The notes beneath the pieces were generated by a model. The model ran no database searches, had not been told where the DNA came from, and saw only the letters and a program-made list of their open reading frames with translations. From contig NZ_MUFC01000001.1 in assembly GCF_001995985.1 (NCBI RefSeq), positions 105,178 to 169,177 on the forward strand: a DNA stretch of 64,000 bases, written 5' to 3'. Both the position numbers and the translations under genes were made by a program. Positions within the stretch are counted from its first letter, which is position 1. Every line of letters begins with the position of its first letter. This DNA comes from Salinivibrio sharmensis (GTDB taxonomy: Bacteria; Pseudomonadota; Gammaproteobacteria; Enterobacterales; Vibrionaceae). Below, one piece after another: positions 6,940-44,441 of this stretch.

Positions 6940-8064
6940 ATGATCATTGGCGTTCCAAAAGAAATCAAAAACCATGAGTACCGCGTTGGTATGGTACCCG
7001 CGAGTGTTCGCGAGCTTATTTCTCACGGCCACTCTGTCTACGTAGAGACCAACGCAGGTAATGGTATTGGTTTCTCTGACGACGACTATATAGCCGCCGG
7101 CGCGTCTATCCTTCCCACTGCTGCTGACGTCTTTGCTAAAGCAGAAATGATCGTCAAGGTAAAAGAGCCACAAGCCGTTGAGCGTGCGATGCTCCGTGAA
7201 GGACAGATTTTGTTCACCTATTTGCATCTTGCACCAGATTTTCCGCAAACAGAAGACTTAATTAAAAGTAAAGCCATCTGTATTGCCTACGAAACGGTAA
7301 CAGATTCTAAAGGTCGATTGCCACTACTTGCGCCTATGTCTGAGGTTGCCGGTCGTATGTCTATTCAAGCAGGTGCACAAGCGCTTGAGAAATCACATGG
7401 TGGTTCAGGCATGCTGCTCAGCGGTGTGCCCGGTGTTGAGCCGGCTAAAATCGTGGTACTAGGCGGTGGCGTAGTTGGCTCTAACGCTGCACGGATGGCG
7501 GTTGGCCTGCGTGCTGACGTGACTATTCTCGACAAAAATGTCGACACCCTACGTCGCCTCGATGAAGAGTTCCAAGGGCGTGCCAAAGTGGTGTACTCCA
7601 CCGAGGAGACCCTGGAGCAACACGTGCTGAACGCTGATCTAGTCGTGGGCGCAGTACTGATCCCAGGGGCTGCTGCACCTAAGCTGGTGAACGAAGATCA
7701 TATCAAACGTATGAAGCCCGGCGCAGCGGCTGTGGATGTGGCTATTGATCAAGGCGGCTGTTTCGCGACTTCACATGCGACCACTCATGCCGATCCAACC
7801 TATATCGTCGACGACGTGGTGCACTACTGTGTCGCTAACATGCCAGGCGCGGTGGCACGTACCTCTACTGTCGCACTAAACAATGCCACACTGCCATATA
7901 TTGTTAAGCTGGCTAACAAGGGCTATCGCGATGCCTTGGTGGAAGACCAACACCTGCGCAATGGCCTGAATGTTATCGGCGGTCAAGTCACGATTAAAGA
8001 AGTCGCTGAAGGCTTTGATTTGCCGTATGTTGATGCCATGGACGCACTGAGGTCTGCGCATTAA
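6940..8064 (+). CDS. ald: alanine dehydrogenase
   Basis: NAD-dependent interconversion of L-alanine with pyruvate plus ammonium, in the cytoplasm. Full length at 374 residues. The substrate-site lysine (VKVKEP, K75) and catalytic histidine (YLHLAPD, H96) are present, with the Rossmann motif [13 protein letters not shown] (about 172-184) and the DVAIDQGGC segment. AGAGGTG lies upstream of the ATG. It is divergent from lrp, and in many bacteria ald is controlled by an Lrp/AsnC protein in response to alanine. A strong terminator follows. Confidence 0.97.
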
Positions 8065-8090
8065 TCGGCTGCGCCAATCATAGAAATCGA

Positions 8091-8121
8091 GGGCACCATC
8101 ACGGTGCCCTTTCTTTACCTT
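8091..8121 (+). terminator. terminator after ald
   Basis: A seven-base-pair stem GGGCACC/GGTGCCC (8091-8097 and 8103-8109) with a five-base loop, followed by TTCTTTACCTTTC. Confidence 0.85.
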
Positions 8122-8183
8122 TCTAATTTACCTACAATCAGTCCATTCAAAAAAACGAACCTCTTTCCTGCTCGGAGACGTGA

Positions 8184-9146
<963 letters not shown>

Positions 9147-9223: not shown

Positions 9224-10993
9224 ATGGATAAATCTAAACAGCGGGCGCTAACCCAATGGCTCAAGTCGCAGAGCACGTTAGCCAAACCCTGGTTAGTTGC
9301 GACGATTAGTATTGCACTCCTCTCCGGTGTGCTTTTGATTGCCCAAGCAGCACTTCTCGCCCACCTGCTGCACCAATTGATTATTGAACAAACAGATAAA
9401 TTCGCGCTGCTCCCAAGCTTTGTCGCCTTAGCTGGCATCGTGCTAGCACGTGCGGTATGCAGTTGGGCAAAAGAGCAAACGGGCTACCGCTGTGGTGAAG
9501 CCATTCGCCAACATATCCGTCACCTGATACTGAACCGACTCGATGCGCTGGGGCCGGTAACGATTCAAGGGCGCCCGGCGGGAAGCTGGGCGAGCCTTAT
9601 TTTGGAACAAGTGGAAGAGTTACAAGATTTTTTCGCTCGTTATCTACCGCAGATGGCTATTGCCGTGCTGATCCCCTTGGTGATCTTGGTTGCCGTATTC
9701 CCAATCAATTGGGCATCAGGCGTGATCTTTTTAGTCACCGCCCCGCTCGTGCCTCTTTTTATGGCGTTAGTCGGCATCAAGGCCGCAGATGCCAACCGCA
9801 AGAATTTCAAGGCACTGCAGCGTCTGTCAGGCTATTTTTACGATCGCTTGCGCGGCCTTCCGACCCTCAAGCTGTTTAACCGGGTCGACGCGGAAGCCGA
9901 CCAACTTCACCTCGCCTCACACACGTTTCGTCAACGTACCATGGAGGTGCTGCGTCTCGCCTTTTTGTCATCGGCTGTGCTGGAATTTTTTACCGCGATT
10001 TCCATTGCCGTTGTCGCGGTCTATTTTGGTTTTAGCTTTATTGGTGAGCTCGACTTTGGCCATTATGGCGCCCCTATATCGCTATTTACTGGGTTATTTG
10101 TGCTGGTGCTCGCGCCTGAGTTTTACCAGCCATTACGTGATCTTGGCACGTTTTATCACGCCAAAGCCCAAGCGATTGGGGCTGCCGAATCCATCGTCGA
10201 GTTTCTCGATGCGCAACCCGATACCGGCACACAAGGCCAAGAGACACCCGATCTCGAGGCTGTGACCATCACCGCGCGCGATCTCGAAGTGCTCAGCCCT
10301 GATGGCCATGTCTTGGCAGGGCCGCTCAACTTTGACGTCAAAGCCGGTGAGCATATTGCACTTGTCGGCGTCAGCGGTGCAGGGAAATCAAGCTTGCTTA
10401 ATGCGCTACTCGGCTTTTTACCCTACCGTGGCCGTCTTAGCATCAATGGCTGTGAACGCAGTGAACTTGATTTGACGCATTGGCGTCAGTCGATAAGCTG
10501 GGTTGGACAAAACCCACAACTTTTCCATGGCAGTATTCGCGACAATATTGCCCTCGCCAACCCAGAAGCGAGCCCTGAGACAATCAATCAGGTGATGACC
10601 CAAGCGTACGTAGATGAGTTTGTGATGCGACTGACCGACGGTTTAGCGCACTTTGTCGGCGACCGAAATGGTGGTTTATCGGTGGGCCAAGCGCAACGTA
10701 TCGCTGTCGCACGGGCGTTGCTACAAAATGGCGCACTGTGGGTGCTGGATGAGCCAACCGCAAGTTTGGATGCACACAGTGAACAACGCGTGCTGGACAC
10801 CTTGCATGCCGCCACCCAAGGTAGAACCTGTATTCAGGTTTCCCATCGTTTAGATACGCTGGCAACCAGTGACCAAGTTTGGGTCATGATGAACGGCAAG
10901 TTAGTACAACAAGGCCCTTATCACACACTGGCAGAAACCGGCCCGCTGGCAGAAATGCTGGCTTCCGCCGATAGGAGAAATCTCGATGCGTGA
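9224..10993 (+). CDS. cydD: thiol reductant ABC exporter subunit CydD
   Basis: Half-transporter that with CydC forms an inner-membrane ABC exporter of cysteine/glutathione or haem-linked function, needed for cytochrome bd assembly. N-terminal membrane domain (about residues 25-330) with six hydrophobic segments, then the ATPase domain: Walker A GVSGAGKS (382-389), signature LSVGQAQR (about 485-492) and Walker B LWVLDEP (505-511). The signature has V where most ABC proteins have G; the cydC partner has the canonical LSGGE. The 3' end overlaps cydC by eight bases, so the two are translationally coupled. Confidence 0.95.
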   Translation: MDKSKQRALTQWLKSQSTLAKPWLVATISIALLSGVLLIAQAALLAHLLHQLIIEQTDKFALLPSFVALAGIVLARAVCSWAKEQTGYRCGEAIRQHIRHLILNRLDALGPVTIQGRPAGSWASLILEQVEELQDFFARYLPQMAIAVLIPLVILVAVFPINWASGVIFLVTAPLVPLFMALVGIKAADANRKNFKALQRLSGYFYDRLRGLPTLKLFNRVDAEADQLHLASHTFRQRTMEVLRLAFLSSAVLEFFTAISIAVVAVYFGFSFIGELDFGHYGAPISLFTGLFVLVLAPEFYQPLRDLGTFYHAKAQAIGAAESIVEFLDAQPDTGTQGQETPDLEAVTITARDLEVLSPDGHVLAGPLNFDVKAGEHIALVGVSGAGKSSLLNALLGFLPYRGRLSINGCERSELDLTHWRQSISWVGQNPQLFHGSIRDNIALANPEASPETINQVMTQAYVDEFVMRLTDGLAHFVGDRNGGLSVGQAQRIAVARALLQNGALWVLDEPTASLDAHSEQRVLDTLHAATQGRTCIQVSHRLDTLATSDQVWVMMNGKLVQQGPYHTLAETGPLAEMLASADRRNLDA

Positions 10994-37034: not shown

Positions 37035-37463
37035 ATGTCTTTTACCCTTCACCCACGCCTGGCCGATGACAGTGCTTATGTTGGCGACTTTCCCTTGTGT
37101 CAGTTACGCCTTGCGCATGCCGATATTGGCCCATGGTTACTACTGGTTCCACGTAAGCATGCGGTACAAGAAATTCATCACCTTGACGACAGCGAGCAAC
37201 AGTCGCTTTGGCAAGAATCGGCCATGGTGGCGCGCTGTCTTGAGCGTTTATTTTCTCCAGACAAACTCAATATTGCCGCGATTGGAAACCTGGTACCACA
37301 ACTCCATGTCCATCATGTCGCTCGGTTTCAAACCGATCCTGTCTGGCCAAACCCCATTTGGGGTCACTTACAAGTCGGTCAACGAACAAATCAGCAAGAG
37401 GGGGGTATTGTCCTGCAGATAAGAGAAGAGCTTGCCCCTAAAGGCTTAAAGGTCGAGGCGTGA
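37035..37463 (+). CDS. HIT family protein
   Basis: Histidine-triad nucleotide hydrolase/transferase fold, 142 residues, AGGAG upstream of the ATG. N-terminal half LHPRLADDSAYVGDFPLCQLRL and WLLLVPRKHAVQEIHHLDD fit the fold; the active-site stretch reads NLVPQLHVHHVARF. In this subfamily the motif is QLHxHH rather than the strict HxHxH. Probable nucleotide or dinucleotide polyphosphate hydrolase; the substrate cannot be read from sequence. No terminator follows directly. Confidence 0.88.
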   Translation: MSFTLHPRLADDSAYVGDFPLCQLRLAHADIGPWLLLVPRKHAVQEIHHLDDSEQQSLWQESAMVARCLERLFSPDKLNIAAIGNLVPQLHVHHVARFQTDPVWPNPIWGHLQVGQRTNQQEGGIVLQIREELAPKGLKVEA

Positions 37464-37537: not shown

Positions 37538-37735
37538 CCCAGCCGGACAAGTTGGCGGTTTAGTCATAACTACGCGATCTAAGGTTGCGATATAATATCG
37601 TCAATCGTTGGGCAACAAACGCCCTCGAAAGCAGTTTTTACCAGGGCGGGTCACCCCGCCCCCGGCAGCAAGCGAAGGTGTCTTTGACACCCGTGGCATG
37701 GCTCCCCGGCTATGCCACGTTTTCTTTTCTTTCCT
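37538..37735 (+). ncRNA. candidate small RNA with own promoter and terminator
   Basis: No protein-coding frame is credible between 37464 and 37766. On the plus strand there are possible -10 elements TATGAT (37527-37532) and TATAAT (37591-37596), then a chain of hairpins. GGGC/GCCC is near 37610-37624, GGGCGGG-tca-CCCCGCCC at 37644-37661 and GGTGTC-ttt-GACACC near 37678-37692. CGTGGCAT/ATGCCACG (37692-37699 and 37712-37719) is followed by TTTTCTTTTCTTT, a good rho-independent terminator. A Fur-like half palindrome GATAATTATC lies at 37510-37519. No gene precedes the terminator except the HIT gene, 230 bases away. It matches no RNA family I recognise; -35 elements are poor, and it could be the 3' UTR of the HIT gene. 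Confidence 0.45.
37692..37732 (+). terminator. plus-strand terminator opposite the propeller-AraC gene
   Basis: CGTGGCAT/ATGCCACG stem with a 12-base loop region that can extend partially, followed by GTTTTCTTTTCTTT. There is no U-tract on the minus strand, so it serves plus-strand transcription only. Confidence 0.8.
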
Positions 37736-37766: not shown

Positions 37767-40484
37767 CTAGTCGAGCATATCAGCCATGGTCACTTCGGTT
37801 CTTGCTTGCCGATAATGCGAGGGGCTTACACCATAATAGCTTTTAAAGCGCTGACTAAAATATGCTGGGTCACGATAACCACATATCTCCGCCACATCGG
37901 CAACGGCATTACCATGTTGTAAAAGTGCAGCGGCATCGCTAAGTCGCTTTTGTGTGACATACGCTGTGACTGTGACACCAAAAAGCTGACGACATTTGCG
38001 TTGCAAGTTACGCTCAGACATAGCTAAAGCGTTCGCTAAATCCGCTGTTGAAAAGTCAGGCTCTTTGTACCTGACTGCAACCGCTTGCTCAAATTTTGCT
38101 GCCCACTGCTGGGCCTCATTATTGTGCGCCAGGCCAAACGATGGCGGATACCCGATATCGTTTGCCGCTCCCCTTCGCGTAGCTGGGTTAGTTTTTGCAA
38201 CCATGGAAGCAAAGGTTGGCGCGTTGGCTGTAGCTGCATCCGCTATCGACATCCGACGTTGCCGTAGCGCCAATAACACCGCGGCAAGGACTAAGCTCGC
38301 AAAGCCAGCTAACACAATACCGTTAATAAAATGAGGTAACATGGGCAGCGACACTGAAAGATCTAACACGGTGTGGGACGCACCGTCACGTGGTATCGCA
38401 ATCCGCAATTGATAATGCCCACCGACCATATTGGCCAAGGAGATGGTATCGTTTCCTGTCTGCTGCCACGCCGCCAGTTTATCTACCATAGGCTGTCCGG
38501 ATTGCTGATAAGGCACGAGCTGATAATGGACGCGTGTCACTTGTCGCTCTGGTGGCCAACTCCCCCACGCCAAGTGAGCGGGGCTTCGTTCTAGCAAGGT
38601 CACCGCGGTCTGTTGGCGAGGGCCAATCCGCCAGCGTTTGTTTTGTTGCCATACCGCTCCCACCACGACGTTTGGCGGCTTACGTAAAGAGAACGCCAAT
38701 TGGTCAGTGTCAATCTGGTAGGTATTGTCACCAGCTAATAGCGTAAGCCGGTGAGGTTGGTTGGCGTAGCAAGCGATATCGCTCGCATCAGACGGTAGGC
38801 GGAACGTGCGTACAAAGCCTCGCGGCGCAATATGCACCAGCGCTTGATTGCTATAAGCCCACACGCCGTCTCGATTCCCAGTGACACACTGAAATTGCTC
38901 ATCCGACATCGATAAATAGGCCGCGGACACAGCGTCCGGCACACTGGGATCGTACTGGTAAACGCCTTGCGCACTGGCTAACCAAAGGCGCCCACGCTCA
39001 TCTGAGTACATACTCAGCACAGGCAGCAGCGCCTCTGTCAACGGTACGGGCTGAAAACGTCCATCGCGATAGCGTGTTAAGCCATTTTGGTCACGGATCC
39101 AAACATTGCCGTACCCATCATCGTAAAAACCCAACACCTTACCCGCCTCATGCGTCTGCCAACGTGTACCATAGCTGACTAACGTCTGCGTATCGGGCCA
39201 ATAGCGCATCACCTGGTTATTCACCGACAACCAAAGCACCCCTTCAGCATCAATATATAAGTGCTCGGCAGGGAGTTGGGCTAACCGTGCTGGTAACGGG
39301 ATCGTATTCCCCGTTTGAATATCAACCCCGGTTATTCCGGACACACTTGACCACCAAAGGTGTTTGTCGTCTCGGGTAGCACTGATTGCATCTGTGGCGT
39401 CCCATTGTCCCTGTAATGGCCGAGTTCCACTTAAATCTCGCCAGCCATTAGTGTCATACGCCCAAGGGTTGTTCGCCGCCATAAATCCCTGGGTGAACAG
39501 TTTAGGAAAAACGCGGTGCTGGTGAGTTATCCACCGCTGTCCCGGGGCGCGATATCGGGTGGCACGATCGGTGGAAAACCATATGCCCCCCTCAAAATCC
39601 GCCCACAAAAACGTCACGCTTTGTCCTGGGATAGCACGGTCATCTGGGGCCCAAACAGGGGTTGCAACCCCATCCAGCGATAGGCGAAATAGCCCATTCT
39701 CATTCGCTGCCCATAGCCCACCAGATCCCATAGTTAGCCGTTGATAACCGCCCCGCGTGTTCAACAAGTGTCGTGCTTTCACTTGATGGCTTGATAGTGC
39801 CAGTAAATACACCGCGTTTTGGGTACTCACCCACGCTCGGTCTTGTTTACCGGTGATCGCTGTGATTGGCGACGAAAAACGAGTCAGTTGACGCACACCC
39901 TGCTCATCAAATTGATATAAGGTTTTCCCGACCGCAAACAGTCGGTGTTCCTCTGTCAACCACACTCTATCAGCTCGCCACCGCCCAGCACGCCATATAT
40001 CAAAGGCTCCATCTTTCGCCCGATAGATACTCAGCTGGCCGTCTTGAATATGCCAGAGTGTATTGTTCACCGTCGCAAGTCGCGGACCACCTGAGGAAGA
40101 CACCGGCGCGCGAGGTGTCGGCCCCGATTTAGGCAGTGGGTACGAGGTAAGCTGATTGGTACTCGGTTGAAAGCGATATACTTGCTCTTTACCCGCCATC
40201 CAGAGTGCCTGATGGGCGTAAGCAATGGTAAGAATTTTTTCATCGGGTAATGTTAAGGCGTCGCGGAGTGGGTGACGCTGGTGGCCATCAAAAAAATCAA
40301 TCTGTCCTTGATTATCCAACAACCACATGCCGCCCGAGGCTTGCACCGCCACATCTTTAACGTTACCCACCCCATTCAGACCACCATAAGACTGAAATGA
40401 AGTTTGCAGCGCATCATGCGCCTGCAACGGTAGGCAAGGAAAGACAAGAACCAGCCATAACAAACAAAGACATTGGCGTTTCAT
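37767..40484 (-). CDS. membrane-bound regulator: periplasmic beta-propeller sensor fused to AraC-type DNA-binding domain
   Basis: 905 residues. Signal peptide or anchor at 1-22 (ending LQAHD). About 30-640 holds at least twelve propeller strands with the pattern G-x-(L/I/V/M)-W followed by a turn and G (GGMWLLDN, GGLWAANENGLF, GGIWFSTD, GVLWLSVNN, GNVWIRDQNGL, GRLWLASAQGV), the two-component-regulator propeller repeat. About 640-715 fits a Y_Y_Y-like beta-sandwich, 719-740 is a single membrane span, and 795-895 is an AraC/XylS double helix-turn-helix (DFSTADLANALAMSERNLQRK, VADVAEICGYRDPAYFSQRF). There is no histidine kinase or receiver, so it would signal in one step. Ligand and targets are unknown. 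Flanked by housekeeping genes; a repeat cluster lies upstream. Confidence 0.88.
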   Translation of the reverse strand: MKRQCLCLLWLVLVFPCLPLQAHDALQTSFQSYGGLNGVGNVKDVAVQASGGMWLLDNQGQIDFFDGHQRHPLRDALTLPDEKILTIAYAHQALWMAGKEQVYRFQPSTNQLTSYPLPKSGPTPRAPVSSSGGPRLATVNNTLWHIQDGQLSIYRAKDGAFDIWRAGRWRADRVWLTEEHRLFAVGKTLYQFDEQGVRQLTRFSSPITAITGKQDRAWVSTQNAVYLLALSSHQVKARHLLNTRGGYQRLTMGSGGLWAANENGLFRLSLDGVATPVWAPDDRAIPGQSVTFLWADFEGGIWFSTDRATRYRAPGQRWITHQHRVFPKLFTQGFMAANNPWAYDTNGWRDLSGTRPLQGQWDATDAISATRDDKHLWWSSVSGITGVDIQTGNTIPLPARLAQLPAEHLYIDAEGVLWLSVNNQVMRYWPDTQTLVSYGTRWQTHEAGKVLGFYDDGYGNVWIRDQNGLTRYRDGRFQPVPLTEALLPVLSMYSDERGRLWLASAQGVYQYDPSVPDAVSAAYLSMSDEQFQCVTGNRDGVWAYSNQALVHIAPRGFVRTFRLPSDASDIACYANQPHRLTLLAGDNTYQIDTDQLAFSLRKPPNVVVGAVWQQNKRWRIGPRQQTAVTLLERSPAHLAWGSWPPERQVTRVHYQLVPYQQSGQPMVDKLAAWQQTGNDTISLANMVGGHYQLRIAIPRDGASHTVLDLSVSLPMLPHFINGIVLAGFASLVLAAVLLALRQRRMSIADAATANAPTFASMVAKTNPATRRGAANDIGYPPSFGLAHNNEAQQWAAKFEQAVAVRYKEPDFSTADLANALAMSERNLQRKCRQLFGVTVTAYVTQKRLSDAAALLQHGNAVADVAEICGYRDPAYFSQRFKSYYGVSPSHYRQARTEVTMADMLD

Positions 40485-40597: not shown

Positions 40598-41935
40598 TTA
40601 TCCATTCAGTCGCTGCGCTAACGCCTGGTGGGCACGCTTTGCTTGGCGCTGGAATGACCCGCGCTCGTCAGTGGGGACAGGATGCGCTTCGGGGAGTGGT
40701 ACCTTCATCGCATTAACTGGGTGCCCGTATTTCAGGAGTTCAAAGTGAAGGTGAGGGCCGGTCGAACGACCTGTATTACCACTCAAACCAATTCTCTGCC
40801 CCATCGACACATGATCGCCCGGCTTAACCAAAATCCGGTTTAAATGTAAGTATCGGGTTGAATACTCGCGTCCGTGCTTTATTACCACGTAGTTACCCGC
40901 TAGACGGTGATGGCGGGCTTTAACCACAACGCCCTCTCCCGCCGCCAGTACCGAGGTACCAATTGGCGTCGCGAAATCAGTACCATTATGTGGCGAAATG
41001 CGTCCTGTAATGGGATGCTTGCGGTGTGGATTAAACGATGAGCTAATACGATAGCGCTTTGCGGTAGGATAACGGCGAAGCGCACGATCCAAGCTCTGCC
41101 CTTGCTCATCGTAAAAACGCCCGTCATGGTGACGGTAGACAAAAATGTCTCGACCTCCCGCCTTGTAGAGCATGGCCGTGACCTTACCCGATGACACGGG
41201 TTTATTGTCAATGAACTCCCTGTTCACTTGTACCGCAAACTGGTCGCCTCGGTGAGACTGGCGCCCGAAATCAAAACGCCATTGCAAAGCCGAAACCAGG
41301 TTCTGAATTTGATTAGGTGTTAATCCCGCTTGGCGCGCTTGCTGATAAAAACTACTGTTAACTCGTCCAATTAACGTAACTTTCTCAAACTTACCCTTAG
41401 TTTCCAGGCGCTGGTAATCGACCTGCCCTTGATTAAATTGGTAGTGGTCACGATATTTAATCGACTGATAAGCAGTGAAAGTCAGTAAATGCCCTTGTCC
41501 GTCGACTTGCCATTCCATTTTTTGGCCCCGACGGATATCACCAGCGTTATCGTTCACCTCCAAGATTTGATACAACTGGCTCATTGGCAGCCCATACTGA
41601 GAGAAAATCTCGCCCAGGGTATCGCCAGCGGCAACCGTGTGTTGGTGAACACGCGGCGCTTCAGATGTGATGTCTTGCTCAAGCGCATCTTCCGGTACAC
41701 GCAAAGCAGGATCATCAGCATCCAACCCTTGTTCAATCGGCTCACTATGCTCAGACGCCGCCGGGTGTTGACGCTCGTTGGCGACGGGAGCAGGCTGACG
41801 TTCCTTGGAAGGCGCAAAAGGAGAAGGCTGCCACATCAGGGCAGCGCCGACTAAAAGAGACAGTGAAGCAAGGGCCAGCTTATGCTGGCGGGGTAGTCTG
41901 GCTGTTAAAGCGAGCCAGTTAGTCAGTAGTTTCAT
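40598..41935 (-). CDS. mepM: murein DD-endopeptidase MepM (M23 family)
   Basis: Zinc metallopeptidase that cuts D-Ala-mDAP crosslinks to let new peptidoglycan in. N-terminal membrane anchor (LALASLSLLVGAALMW, about 20-35), an OapA/LysM-like region (HTVAAGDTLGEIFSQYGLP, about 97-145) and the C-terminal M23 LytM domain. Zinc ligands: HNGTD (His316, Asp320) and HLHF (His397), with His395 as catalytic partner. 445 residues (E. coli 440). Overlaps the 3' end of znuA by 17 bases; the znuA-mepM linkage is the same in E. coli. Zinc-dependent peptidoglycan growth under Zur control makes sense of the pairing. Confidence 0.96.
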   Translation of the reverse strand: MKLLTNWLALTARLPRQHKLALASLSLLVGAALMWQPSPFAPSKERQPAPVANERQHPAASEHSEPIEQGLDADDPALRVPEDALEQDITSEAPRVHQHTVAAGDTLGEIFSQYGLPMSQLYQILEVNDNAGDIRRGQKMEWQVDGQGHLLTFTAYQSIKYRDHYQFNQGQVDYQRLETKGKFEKVTLIGRVNSSFYQQARQAGLTPNQIQNLVSALQWRFDFGRQSHRGDQFAVQVNREFIDNKPVSSGKVTAMLYKAGGRDIFVYRHHDGRFYDEQGQSLDRALRRYPTAKRYRISSSFNPHRKHPITGRISPHNGTDFATPIGTSVLAAGEGVVVKARHHRLAGNYVVIKHGREYSTRYLHLNRILVKPGDHVSMGQRIGLSGNTGRSTGPHLHFELLKYGHPVNAMKVPLPEAHPVPTDERGSFQRQAKRAHQALAQRLNG

Positions 41936-42815
41936 GCTTTAAACAACGTGTGAAACGATTTCCCATATCTTGTAAAAACACCTGATAGCCATCAGGTGCT
42001 ACCTGAATTGATGTCGCCAATGGATCCAAGGCAAAAACATTGACGTCATTGTGTCGCGTCACAGCATCAATCAGTGCGGGATTAAACTGCGGCTCCGTGA
42101 AGATACAGGTCGCATCGTGATTAAGCAAACCTCGGCGAATTGTGACTAAGGTTTTCGCGCCCGGCTTTTGACTTGGGTCAACCGTAAAGTGGCCTGTTTT
42201 TTCCAAGCCAAATGCATCTTCGAAGTAACCGTAGGCATCATGAAAGACAAAATAACCCGATTGAACTTTGGTGGAGAGATCGTGCTCAATATTGGCAACA
42301 GTTTTATCTAGCTGGGCATTAAAGCGGGCTAAGTTGGCCTGATATTGCTCTTTTTTATTGGGCGCCGCTTTAATCAGCGCCTCAGTAATGGCTTGCGCCG
42401 CCACGCGGGTTGGTTTCGGCCCCAGCCAAAAGTGCGGATCAATATTGTGCTCGCCATGATCGTGACCGTGATCGTGGTGATGCCCACCATCAAAATGGCG
42501 TAAAGGCATATTATCTGCCTGTGTTAGGGTAAGCACCGACGGTTTATCCGCCAGTAGTTTGGAAAGAAATAGTTCGAGTTCAGGCCCCACCCAAATCGTC
42601 ACATCCGCTTGGTTTAACGCACGGATATCTGAAGGCTTCAATGCATAGCTGTGAGGGGAGGCACCTGGGGGCAGTAGGACATCCAAACTATCCTCCTCCG
42701 TGATTAAACCCGCGGCGATCAGCTGCAAAGGTTTAATCGATGTCATTACTGACGTGGCTTGTGCAGGCAGTGCAAGCAATAGCGCAATAAATACCCCAAC
42801 GATACGAGCTATCAT
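41919..42815 (-). CDS. znuA: zinc ABC transporter substrate-binding protein ZnuA
   Basis: Periplasmic high-affinity zinc receptor. Start at 42815 (GAGGAAAG upstream) giving signal peptide MIARIVGVFIALLLALPAQA and 298 residues. Zinc ligands include the His in SPHSYALKPSD (about H55) and DPHFW (about H128); between them lies a His/Asp-rich loop, about residues 112-123 (HHHDHGHDHGEH), thought to capture zinc. The longer frame from 42875 crosses the Zur box and lacks a signal peptide start. Confidence 0.97.
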   Translation of the reverse strand: MIARIVGVFIALLLALPAQATSVMTSIKPLQLIAAGLITEEDSLDVLLPPGASPHSYALKPSDIRALNQADVTIWVGPELELFLSKLLADKPSVLTLTQADNMPLRHFDGGHHHDHGHDHGEHNIDPHFWLGPKPTRVAAQAITEALIKAAPNKKEQYQANLARFNAQLDKTVANIEHDLSTKVQSGYFVFHDAYGYFEDAFGLEKTGHFTVDPSQKPGAKTLVTIRRGLLNHDATCIFTEPQFNPALIDAVTRHNDVNVFALDPLATSIQVAPDGYQVFLQDMGNRFTRCLKHETTD

Positions 42816-42849
42816 CTTTCCTCTCATTCTTGTGTTTCTACAACGGCAA

Positions 42850-42872
42850 GAAATGTTATAATATAACAATTC
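42850..42872. promoter_or_regulatory. Zur box between znuA and znuC
   Basis: The dyad GAAATGTTATA / ATATAACAATTC agrees with the E. coli znu operator (GAAATGTTATA-n-TATAACATTTC) in all but one or two bases. It contains TATAAT-like -10 sequences on both strands, so Zur with zinc should block both znuA-mepM and znuCB promoters. Confidence 0.92.
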
Positions 42873-42895
42873 CAATTCACAATGTTTTTTTCACT

Positions 42896-43660
42896 ATGAC
42901 TGACTCGCTAGTCTCGCTCGACGCGGTGACGGTCACCTTTAACGGCCGTAACGTGCTGGATAAGGTATCGATGCAATTAAGACGCGGGCAAATCACCACG
43001 CTAATCGGCCCGAATGGTGCAGGTAAATCCACGTTGGTTAAAGCGCTGATCGGTTTGGTTAAGCCCAACGCCGGTATCGTACAGATAACTAAAGGCGCGA
43101 AAATCGGTTACGTGCCACAAAAGTTACAGCTTAATCAAACGCTACCGCTAACGGTGGATCGCTTCATTCGCTTAGGCACTCGCTATACCAACGCGCAAAT
43201 TAGCCATGCGCTGCAAACAGTGAATGCCAAAGCCCTGCAATACGCGAATATGCACACACTGTCTGGTGGCGAAACGCAACGGGTGTTACTCGCAAGGGCT
43301 ATTTTAAAGCACCCAGATGTCCTGGTACTGGATGAGCCAGTGCAAGGTGTCGATGTCAGTGGTCAGCTAGAAATGTATAGCCTGATTAGTCAACTACGTG
43401 ACAGCCTAGGTTGCGCAGTGCTCATGGTCTCACATGATTTGCATTTAGTGATGGCGAAAACTGATGAAGTGATTTGTTTGCAGCATCATGTCTGCTGCTC
43501 GGGTGAGCCCGATGCCATCTCGCAACACCCTTCTTATGTCGCGATGTTTGGTCGCCAAACCAGTGAGCAACTGGCGCTTTACCATCATCACCATCATCAT
43601 AAACACGACCTTGCGGGGCAACCTGTAAGCTGCGAACACCAAGAGCATCATCATGATTGA
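42896..43660 (+). CDS. znuC: zinc ABC transporter ATP-binding protein ZnuC
   Basis: ATPase of the ZnuABC importer. Walker A GPNGAGKS (38-45), signature LSGGE (about 122-126), Walker B VLVLDEP, H-loop MVSHDLHLVM. 254 residues from the ATG at 42896. The C-terminus carries a run of six histidines (YHHHHHHKHD) and a second His/Glu cluster (EHQEHHHD); E. coli ZnuC has a shorter version of this tail. The 3' end overlaps znuB by eight bases. The upstream frame from 42830 crosses the Zur box and is rejected. Confidence 0.96.
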   Translation: MTDSLVSLDAVTVTFNGRNVLDKVSMQLRRGQITTLIGPNGAGKSTLVKALIGLVKPNAGIVQITKGAKIGYVPQKLQLNQTLPLTVDRFIRLGTRYTNAQISHALQTVNAKALQYANMHTLSGGETQRVLLARAILKHPDVLVLDEPVQGVDVSGQLEMYSLISQLRDSLGCAVLMVSHDLHLVMAKTDEVICLQHHVCCSGEPDAISQHPSYVAMFGRQTSEQLALYHHHHHHKHDLAGQPVSCEHQEHHHD

Positions 43661-44441
43661 GTTCTTATTGGCCCCTATTATGGGCGGCTTGTTGATCGCC
43701 GCCATTGCCGGCCCTTTGGGCTCATTTGTGGTCTGGCGACGTATGGCCTATTTTGGCGATACACTGGCTCACGCCTCACTACTCGGTTTAGCGTTAGGAT
43801 TTCTGTTGCAAATCGATTTGAACCTCGCACTTGTGATCACCTGCTTACTCTTGGCGGTGTTATTGGTTGGACTACAGCGTCAGCACTTGGTCTCAACCGA
43901 TACCCTGTTAGGCATATTGGCTCACAGTGCCCTATCTTTGGGGCTAGTGTCGGTGAGCTTTTTAGATAATATGCGCGTCGACCTGATGGCCTATTTGTTT
44001 GGCGATCTGTTGGCGGTCTCGTTTGCTGATCTTACATGGTTAGCGGTCGGTGCCTGCCTAACACTTGGTGTGTTGGCGTACTACTGGGAACAACTGCTAT
44101 CGATGACCGTCAGCGAAGAGCTTGCCAAGGTGGAAGGCATTGCAGTAGAAAAACTGCGGCTGTTATTGATGCTACTGATTGGTTTGGTCATTGCGCTGGC
44201 AATGAAATTTGTCGGGGCATTAATTATTACCTCTATGCTAATCATTCCCGCGGCAACGGCAAGGCGTATCGCCTCTACCCCAGAGCAAATGGCTTCGTTT
44301 GCCAGCCTCATCGGCATGGGCGCCGTTGTGCTTGGCATGGCAGGCTCATGGTTTTATGACACGCCAGCAGGCCCATCTGTTGTGGTGGCAGCAGCCAGTG
44401 TCTTTATGTTGGCGCAGTTATTGCCGAATCGCTCGCACTAA
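43653..44441 (+). CDS. znuB: zinc ABC transporter permease ZnuB
   Basis: Membrane subunit of ZnuABC, 262 residues with about eight hydrophobic segments. Family blocks: GPLGSFVVWRRMAYFGDTLAHASLLG, MAYLFGDLLAVS, KFVGALIITSMLIIPAATAR. The start lies within the end of znuC, so the two are coupled. A strong bidirectional terminator follows. Confidence 0.97.
   Translation: MIEFLLAPIMGGLLIAAIAGPLGSFVVWRRMAYFGDTLAHASLLGLALGFLLQIDLNLALVITCLLLAVLLVGLQRQHLVSTDTLLGILAHSALSLGLVSVSFLDNMRVDLMAYLFGDLLAVSFADLTWLAVGACLTLGVLAYYWEQLLSMTVSEELAKVEGIAVEKLRLLLMLLIGLVIALAMKFVGALIITSMLIIPAATARRIASTPEQMASFASLIGMGAVVLGMAGSWFYDTPAGPSVVVAAASVFMLAQLLPNRSH

Follow-up and report, generated by a model that had tools for sequence, protein, structure and literature searches.

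A kinase-free ortholog of the transmembrane regulator TfoS adjoins the small RNA gene tfoR in Salinivibrio sharmensis

The stretch of Salinivibrio sharmensis DNA analysed here (the window; 64,000 nucleotides, positions 105,178 to 169,177 of contig NZ_MUFC01000001.1, assembly GCF_001995985.1) encodes at 37767-40484 a regulator in which a periplasmic sensor, a single membrane span and an AraC-type output are joined in one chain. Sensors of this type are known from hybrid two-component systems (HTCS), and the locus raises the question of what such a protein acts on without a kinase. A sequence-only reading had regarded its target as unknown and the gene as an insertion relative to the usual Vibrio order. 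The gene encodes the ortholog, in Salinivibrio, of the V. cholerae protein TfoS (VC2080), a transmembrane regulator already characterised as switching on tfoR when chitin is present. Its target is very probably the neighbouring tfoR, because a tfoR recognized by Rfam adjoins tfoS and V. cholerae TfoS acts at the tfoR promoter. The whole explanation, that the gene is tfoS and that a periplasmic chitin signal leads via tfoR and TfoX to competence with no phosphotransfer, is considered highly probable.

The open reading frame (ORF) comprises 905 codons on the minus strand and is divided as follows:

37767..40484, minus strand: tfoS ortholog, 905 residues (ORF, Pfam, synteny)
40416..40484, minus strand: signal peptide, residues 1-23 (hydropathy 5-23; model helix 2-14 at low confidence)
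38340..40415, minus strand: periplasmic sensor, residues 24-715 (AlphaFold2; best PDB matches are the HTCS sensors BT4663 and BT4673)
38226..38339, minus strand: membrane helix, residues 716-753, with the hydrophobic core 722-740 (hydropathy, AlphaFold2)
38130..38225, minus strand: linker of low confidence, residues 754-785, where the kinase region sits in many orthologs
37797..38129, minus strand: AraC-type DNA-binding domain, residues 786-896 (Pfam HTH_18, model helices)

Signal sequence, propeller strands, a single span and AraC output had been read from the sequence, and hydropathy, AlphaFold2 and Pfam agree on all of them. Hydropathy shows the signal at residues 5-23 and a single span at 722-740. 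Pfam lists HTH_18/HTH_AraC at residues 816-893 (HTH_18 with E 3.4e-22) and one Reg_prop repeat at residues 488-504. No HisKA, HATPase_c or Response_reg is listed at E<=1, which upholds the earlier statement that kinase and receiver are absent.

The AlphaFold2 model was derived from a 40-sequence alignment (mean predicted local distance difference test (pLDDT) 79.4, predicted template modelling score 0.62). Its propeller part has 51 strands inside residues 42-592. Assuming four strands a blade, the modelled sensor would consist of about 13 blades in two propellers; this is the blade count that the sequence-only reading had sought from structure prediction. The first propeller (about residues 27-313) matches seven-bladed G-beta propellers (Z about 21, root-mean-square deviation (r.m.s.d.) 2.7-2.8, about 264 aligned residues). 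A segment of eight strands, residues 605-712, occupies the Y_Y_Y position. The Y_Y_Y-like segment claimed earlier is thereby supported in fold and position, and also by Pfam matches in 12 of the 40 aligned orthologs (E<=0.001), but Pfam finds no Y_Y_Y in the 905-residue protein itself. A lone helix (716-753) follows, then a linker (752-786) with pLDDT <50 and the AraC helices (786-896). The whole sensor matches BT4663 with a Foldseek E of 2.3e-30; VIA gave Z 25.7, r.m.s.d. 6.7 and 647 aligned residues for BT4663 and Z 26.6, r.m.s.d. 18.1 and 640 aligned residues for BT4673. According to its own note, VIA tested mainly residues 27-320. The protein has the Reg_prop/Y_Y_Y periplasmic sensor fold of HTCS (Pfam, structure matches) and none of their HisKA, HATPase_c and receiver domains. 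As a single chain that runs from the sensor through the membrane span to the DNA-binding domain, it is a one-component transmembrane regulator, as had been proposed, and probably acts on DNA from the membrane.

Adjacent to the 3' end of the gene two features were located on the opposite strand:

37636..37729, plus strand: tfoR small RNA gene, tail-to-tail with tfoS (Rfam RF02100)
37553..37568, plus strand: putative box for binding of TfoS, TGKCG-N6-T-N2-TA, within the tfoR promoter

The RF02100 match scores 77.7 bits (gathering cut-off 70, E 4.1e-19) and lies 37 nucleotides from the tfoS stop codon. The candidate box occurs in 66 of 71 tfoR promoters, 91-139 nucleotides upstream of the tfoR core, a count that is no independent test since the box was defined after 20 promoters had been seen and some species are common to both sets. 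These 71 promoters are from the window and from the 70 of 80 named loci that have an exact 15-nucleotide tfoR core. Shuffling gives an expectation of 0.14, and the reverse strand gives 0. The remaining five promoters contain near variants, judged by eye. Since the pattern is found at five further places in the window, it lacks specificity by itself. G011 and G046, where tfoR has no adjoining tfoS, are without the box, and so is G019, where the TfoS matches lie in short frames. In G023 the box is present though tfoR scores below cut-off.

The tfoS gene of V. cholerae has the locus tag VC2080, and its product is described as a 'transmembrane transcriptional regulator' (PMC12282291); the small RNA TfoR is encoded between VC2078 and VC2080 (PMC8545128). 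In V. cholerae the tfoR promoter is a site of action of both TfoS and ChiS, and chitin-induced transformation requires the two (PMC11856585). Further experiments on TfoS and tfoR are described for V. cholerae (PMC13316777) and V. parahaemolyticus (PMC7564644). According to the latter paper TfoS is devoid of a two-component signature domain and its sensor is related to that of hybrid two-component proteins; TfoS is also tabled among transmembrane transcription regulators (PMC10269533). PMC6918086 mentions neither TfoS nor tfoR nor ChiS, and PMC6618264 mentions TfoS once. The sequence-only reading had named a characterised homologue of the same architecture as a finding that would speak against it, and TfoS (VC2080) is such a homologue. 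The matches listed in the literature searches, which covered their sources in part, included no study of competence in Salinivibrio and nothing useful on a one-component regulator joining propeller and AraC domain.

The neighbourhood of the gene in the window supports this assignment. Names of neighbours are from sequence recognition and marker motifs, with no profile searches.

40598..41935, minus strand: M23 peptidase-like gene, a neighbour in Salinivibrio, Photobacterium and some others
41919..44441: znuA (minus strand), znuC (plus strand) and znuB (plus strand), conserved neighbours
37035..37463, plus strand: HIT-family-like gene, the neighbour on the other side

Orthologs of 902-919 residues (57-75% identity) are found at the same place in five of seven congeners. 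The other two (G004 and G006) have copies of 798 and 755 residues without the AraC domain, and all seven have the M23-type and HIT-like genes as flanks. In other Vibrionaceae the order at this place is sucD - znuB - znuC - znuA - (M23) - tfoS - feoB - HIT - argS; Enterovibrio and several Vibrio have no M23 gene there. In V. cholerae, VC2077-2078 are feoBA. Syntenic orthologs are present in Enterovibrio, Grimontia, Photobacterium and Vibrio, which disposes of the supposed insertion. An ortholog lies between the znu genes and feoB/HIT at 13 of 16 named loci and also in S. siamensis, there without feoB. S. siamensis shares this lack of feoB with two others of the 16, V. albus and Vibrio sp. HA2012. 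Salinivibrio is peculiar in that feoAB is gone from the znu-tfoS locus while tfoS stays. The search for accompanying genes, one of the proposed checks, thus gave znu, (M23), (feoAB), HIT, argS and tfoR. The znuABC zinc uptake genes also correct the statement that no uptake genes are adjacent.

Kinase-free propeller-AraC proteins of V. albus and Vibrio sp. HA2012 (L048 5866-8676, L049 5848-8604) lie elsewhere, beside an ABC-transporter-like operon. They were rejected as synteny orthologs, being off-locus and with no exact tfoR core in the DNA examined, and may be paralogs.

In a tree built from the sensor and the AraC domain alone (41 rows of 859 columns), the protein groups with the orthologs of the locus. 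Salinivibrio is placed with Enterovibrio and Grimontia (support 97/88), Photobacterium stands alone (99/97) and Vibrio is placed with Aliivibrio (100/99). The loci of the tree are a hand-picked 38 of 80 named ones, two of three outgroup rows were dropped and the branch of the remaining outgroup is very long.

tfoR is found in six of eight Salinivibrio and is missing exactly in G004 and G006, the two whose TfoS has no AraC domain. It is present in 27 of 61 relatives (26 over cut-off) and is the usual neighbour of the tfoS orthologs. Among 150 Vibrionaceae genomes, 88 have a TfoS match and 97 a tfoR match (93 over cut-off); the TfoS query of this survey was of Vibrio type, with a limit of E<=1e-35, and Salinivibrio is among those that it fails to pick up. 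Eighty of the 88 TfoS-bearing genomes have a tfoR match at E<=0.001 and 77 have one over the Rfam cut-off. In G156 the tfoR match is weak and far from tfoS.

Other members of the chitin-competence circuit are encoded elsewhere in the genome. The window's genome encodes ChiS (51% identity to an Enterovibrio query, 1157.7 bits), and its gene adjoins an rne-like gene and an oligosaccharide-type ABC operon resembling that beside Vibrio ChiS. Each of the eight Salinivibrio has two TfoX_N genes, one of which is preceded by a c-di-GMP-I riboswitch in all eight; by this riboswitch the one is taken as TfoY and the other as TfoX. Of the TfoX of G004 there is just a fragment, close to the end of a contig. 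All eight have ComEC, with shorter frames in G004 and G006, and so is GH18, in pieces in the same two. The window's genome has a cluster GH18 - LPMO-like - GH18 with two GH18 chitinase genes, the lytic polysaccharide monooxygenase (LPMO) being named by recognition. Some 2 kb separate tfoX of this genome from a FeoB-like ORF (L208 1263-3590 and 5645-6232).

From these parts we infer the following route. TfoS would reside in the inner membrane, with its propeller and Ig-like sensor facing the periplasm and most likely detecting chitin oligosaccharides there. Binding of the signal would rearrange or dimerise the sensor, and the membrane-tethered AraC domain would bind the tfoR promoter, so that tfoR is transcribed towards tfoS from the adjoining gap. 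TfoR would raise translation of TfoX and hence competence. As in V. cholerae, ChiS probably assists in this by drawing the promoter towards the membrane. No phosphotransfer would be involved, an ancestral hybrid two-component protein having probably lost kinase and receiver at this locus.

Several observations weigh against this explanation, and the definition of the box after 20 of the promoters had been seen is one of them. Sampled orthologs from outside the genus share just 19-24% identity with the protein, and the Salinivibrio branch in the tree is long (2.13), which makes a change of ligand possible. Neither the alignment nor the tree includes TfoS of V. cholerae. Eight of the 88 TfoS-bearing genomes have no tfoR match (G120, G122, G134, G144, G158, G164, G167 and G171, all of genus code g8), or 11 of 88 when only matches over the cut-off are counted. 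Conversely, G011 and G046 have tfoR and no adjoining tfoS, and in G010 there is none up to the contig end:

L170, about 9993-10096: tfoR kept in G011
L171, about 9935-10032: tfoR kept in G046
L169, 4910-5013: tfoR kept in G010

The pair is thus not obligatory. GH94 chitobiose phosphorylase is absent in all eight Salinivibrio and present in eight of nine other genomes tested. Finally, pairing of tfoR with tfoX was not detected, by a test that was equally blind in Vibrio-type and other controls. In five of six genomes the unconstrained duplex energies were no better than those of 46 upstream regions of other genes; in the sixth (G005) the energy was beaten by 35 of 46 regions and the observed value was reached by 0 of 200 shuffles. 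Contiguous complementarity revealed no site common to Salinivibrio. The pairing results were counted neither for nor against. The ChiS-linked ABC operon is kept in Salinivibrio (L209 9709-14903) despite the missing GH94.

The strong divergence of the Salinivibrio sensor would also fit a TfoS-descended regulator rewired to another signal and target, for example zinc or ferrous iron, given znuABC nearby and feoB beyond the gene at 13 of the 16 named loci. However, tfoR and the promoter box are kept alongside the gene and are lost together with the AraC domain, feoAB is gone from the Salinivibrio locus while tfoS stays, and the V. cholerae protein acts on tfoR. Such rewiring is therefore unlikely.

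Substitution patterns bear on whether the gene functions at all. Among intact Salinivibrio copies the ratio of nonsynonymous to synonymous substitution rates (dN/dS) of the sensor is 0.08-0.12 in four of five pairs, the fifth being saturated, and that of the AraC domain is 0.06-0.17 in the unsaturated pairs (one of five saturated); dS is >1.5 in two further pairs. The linker (746-789) reaches 0.2-0.96. There are no internal stops in tfoS of any of the eight Salinivibrio. With its orthologs in congeners, the 905-residue ORF of the sequence-only reading is a real gene. A decaying remnant without function, to which the loss of AraC domain and tfoR in two congeners and the missing kinase region might point, is very improbable in view of these ratios and uninterrupted frames. 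Least credible is the inserted one-component regulator with unknown polysaccharide ligand and target, whose architecture was described correctly but which has syntenic orthologs in four genera and tfoR at its side.

TfoS acting on tfoR remains the preferred explanation, and the orthologs at this one locus would form a reductive series that is apparently new. Four Photobacterium copies (L051, L054, L071 and L108) have 1272-1297 residues. Pfam detects HATPase_c over the curated cut-off in all four, Response_reg at E<=0.01 in all four (three over cut-off, L051 below) and HisKA at E<=0.01 in three (L071 over cut-off, L051 and L054 below, L108 not listed). L071 is the sole one of the four with all three domains over their cut-offs. 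Two of these four HTCS-length copies, L051 and L054, had no exact tfoR core next to them. In the P. lipolyticum copy (L031/L109, 1163 residues) HisKA and HATPase_c stay and the receiver is not listed. The phospho-acceptor histidine is kept in four of the five Photobacterium copies with a kinase region (L108 has asparagine) and is lost in all 23 sampled TfoS of Vibrio and Aliivibrio (1100-1178 residues). No kinase was found in the copies of Salinivibrio, Enterovibrio and Grimontia (902-936 residues) or P. jeanii. In G022, tfoS is split into a 778-residue sensor and a 135-residue AraC ORF overlapping by 4 nucleotides (L037 7031-9367, 9364-9771), with tfoR and a box-like sequence kept. A second split TfoS has a sensor-membrane ORF (L074 5158-7443) and a C-terminal ORF (7443-8633).

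The simplest reading of these sequences would be that a hybrid two-component protein decayed in place. The tree requires three changes between presence and absence of the kinase region, one of them in the off-locus V. albus and Vibrio sp. HA2012. We infer that the direction was loss, chiefly from the domains and less from the root of the tree because the outgroup branch is very long. Among the matches listed in full-text literature searches, which covered few subscription papers, there was no report of HTCS-type TfoS orthologs in Photobacterium.

Two congeners have copies without the AraC domain:

L026, 2699-5095: AraC-less TfoS copy of G004
L027, 8094-10361: AraC-less TfoS copy of G006

Both genes end shortly after the membrane span, and both share the same junction, at which about 840-880 nucleotides of the arrangement in G003 are replaced by about 230-275 nucleotides without similarity. 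This replacement took the AraC domain, tfoR and the tfoR promoter. Between the two sensors dS is 0.71, a value that includes divergence from before the deletion, which should be small because both carry the same junction; dN/dS is 0.136, and there are no stops. Neutral simulation gave about 21 expected stops per lineage (minimum 9 in 300 runs). Thus, the sensor still shows purifying selection in two species without an AraC domain.

ChiS was not found in G006, where the best match (162 bits) is at the level of other kinases, and in G004 it is in three overlapping pieces. Both assemblies also split argS, and the single frameshifts in the chitinase and the ChiS pieces may be errors; the shared replacement is the only loss treated as secure there. 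It is suggestive that both genomes have the break in the second GH18 at the same profile position, 118/120. Selection on the sensor after loss of AraC domain, tfoR and, in G006, ChiS would imply a job independent of DNA, for example holding chitin oligosaccharides or contacting another membrane partner. That living species retain at this locus the stages between an HTCS and a one-component regulator, with the target small RNA alongside, and that in addition the AraC-less sensor has a DNA-independent job, can together be proposed only tentatively.

The chitin-competence switch would thereby extend to Salinivibrio, with a likely target for an apparent orphan regulator. New in this report are the kinase-free Salinivibrio form, the occurrence of HTCS-type orthologs at its locus and the AraC-less sensor that is under selection. 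HTCS-type, histidine-less, kinase-free, split and AraC-less forms at one locus with one short candidate promoter are a natural ortholog set, which would allow tests of the way in which a phosphorelay receptor sheds its kinase, and of whether tethering to the membrane is enough by itself. In PMC12282291, VC2080 is listed among genes nearly exclusive to V. cholerae, yet TfoS-type matches occur in 88 of 150 Vibrionaceae genomes, which suggests that TfoS diverges so fast that identity surveys can miss it.

Among known systems, the Salinivibrio protein is closest to TfoS (VC2080; VP0854 in V. parahaemolyticus), with which it shares the locus, the HTCS-type sensor, one span, the AraC output, tfoR alongside and ChiS in the genome. 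It differs in having no vestigial kinase region such as that seen in the sampled Vibrio and Aliivibrio, no feoAB next to the gene and low identity to orthologs outside the genus. Over residues 27-715, both Foldseek and VIA rank the Bacteroides HTCS BT4663 and BT4673 highest, with BT3049 next in Foldseek, and all three have an AraC output; the HisKA, HATPase and receiver of these systems are missing from the Salinivibrio protein. ToxR, TcpP and CadC are also one-component regulators acting from the membrane. Their winged-helix output lies ahead of the membrane span, whereas the AraC output of the Salinivibrio protein lies behind it.

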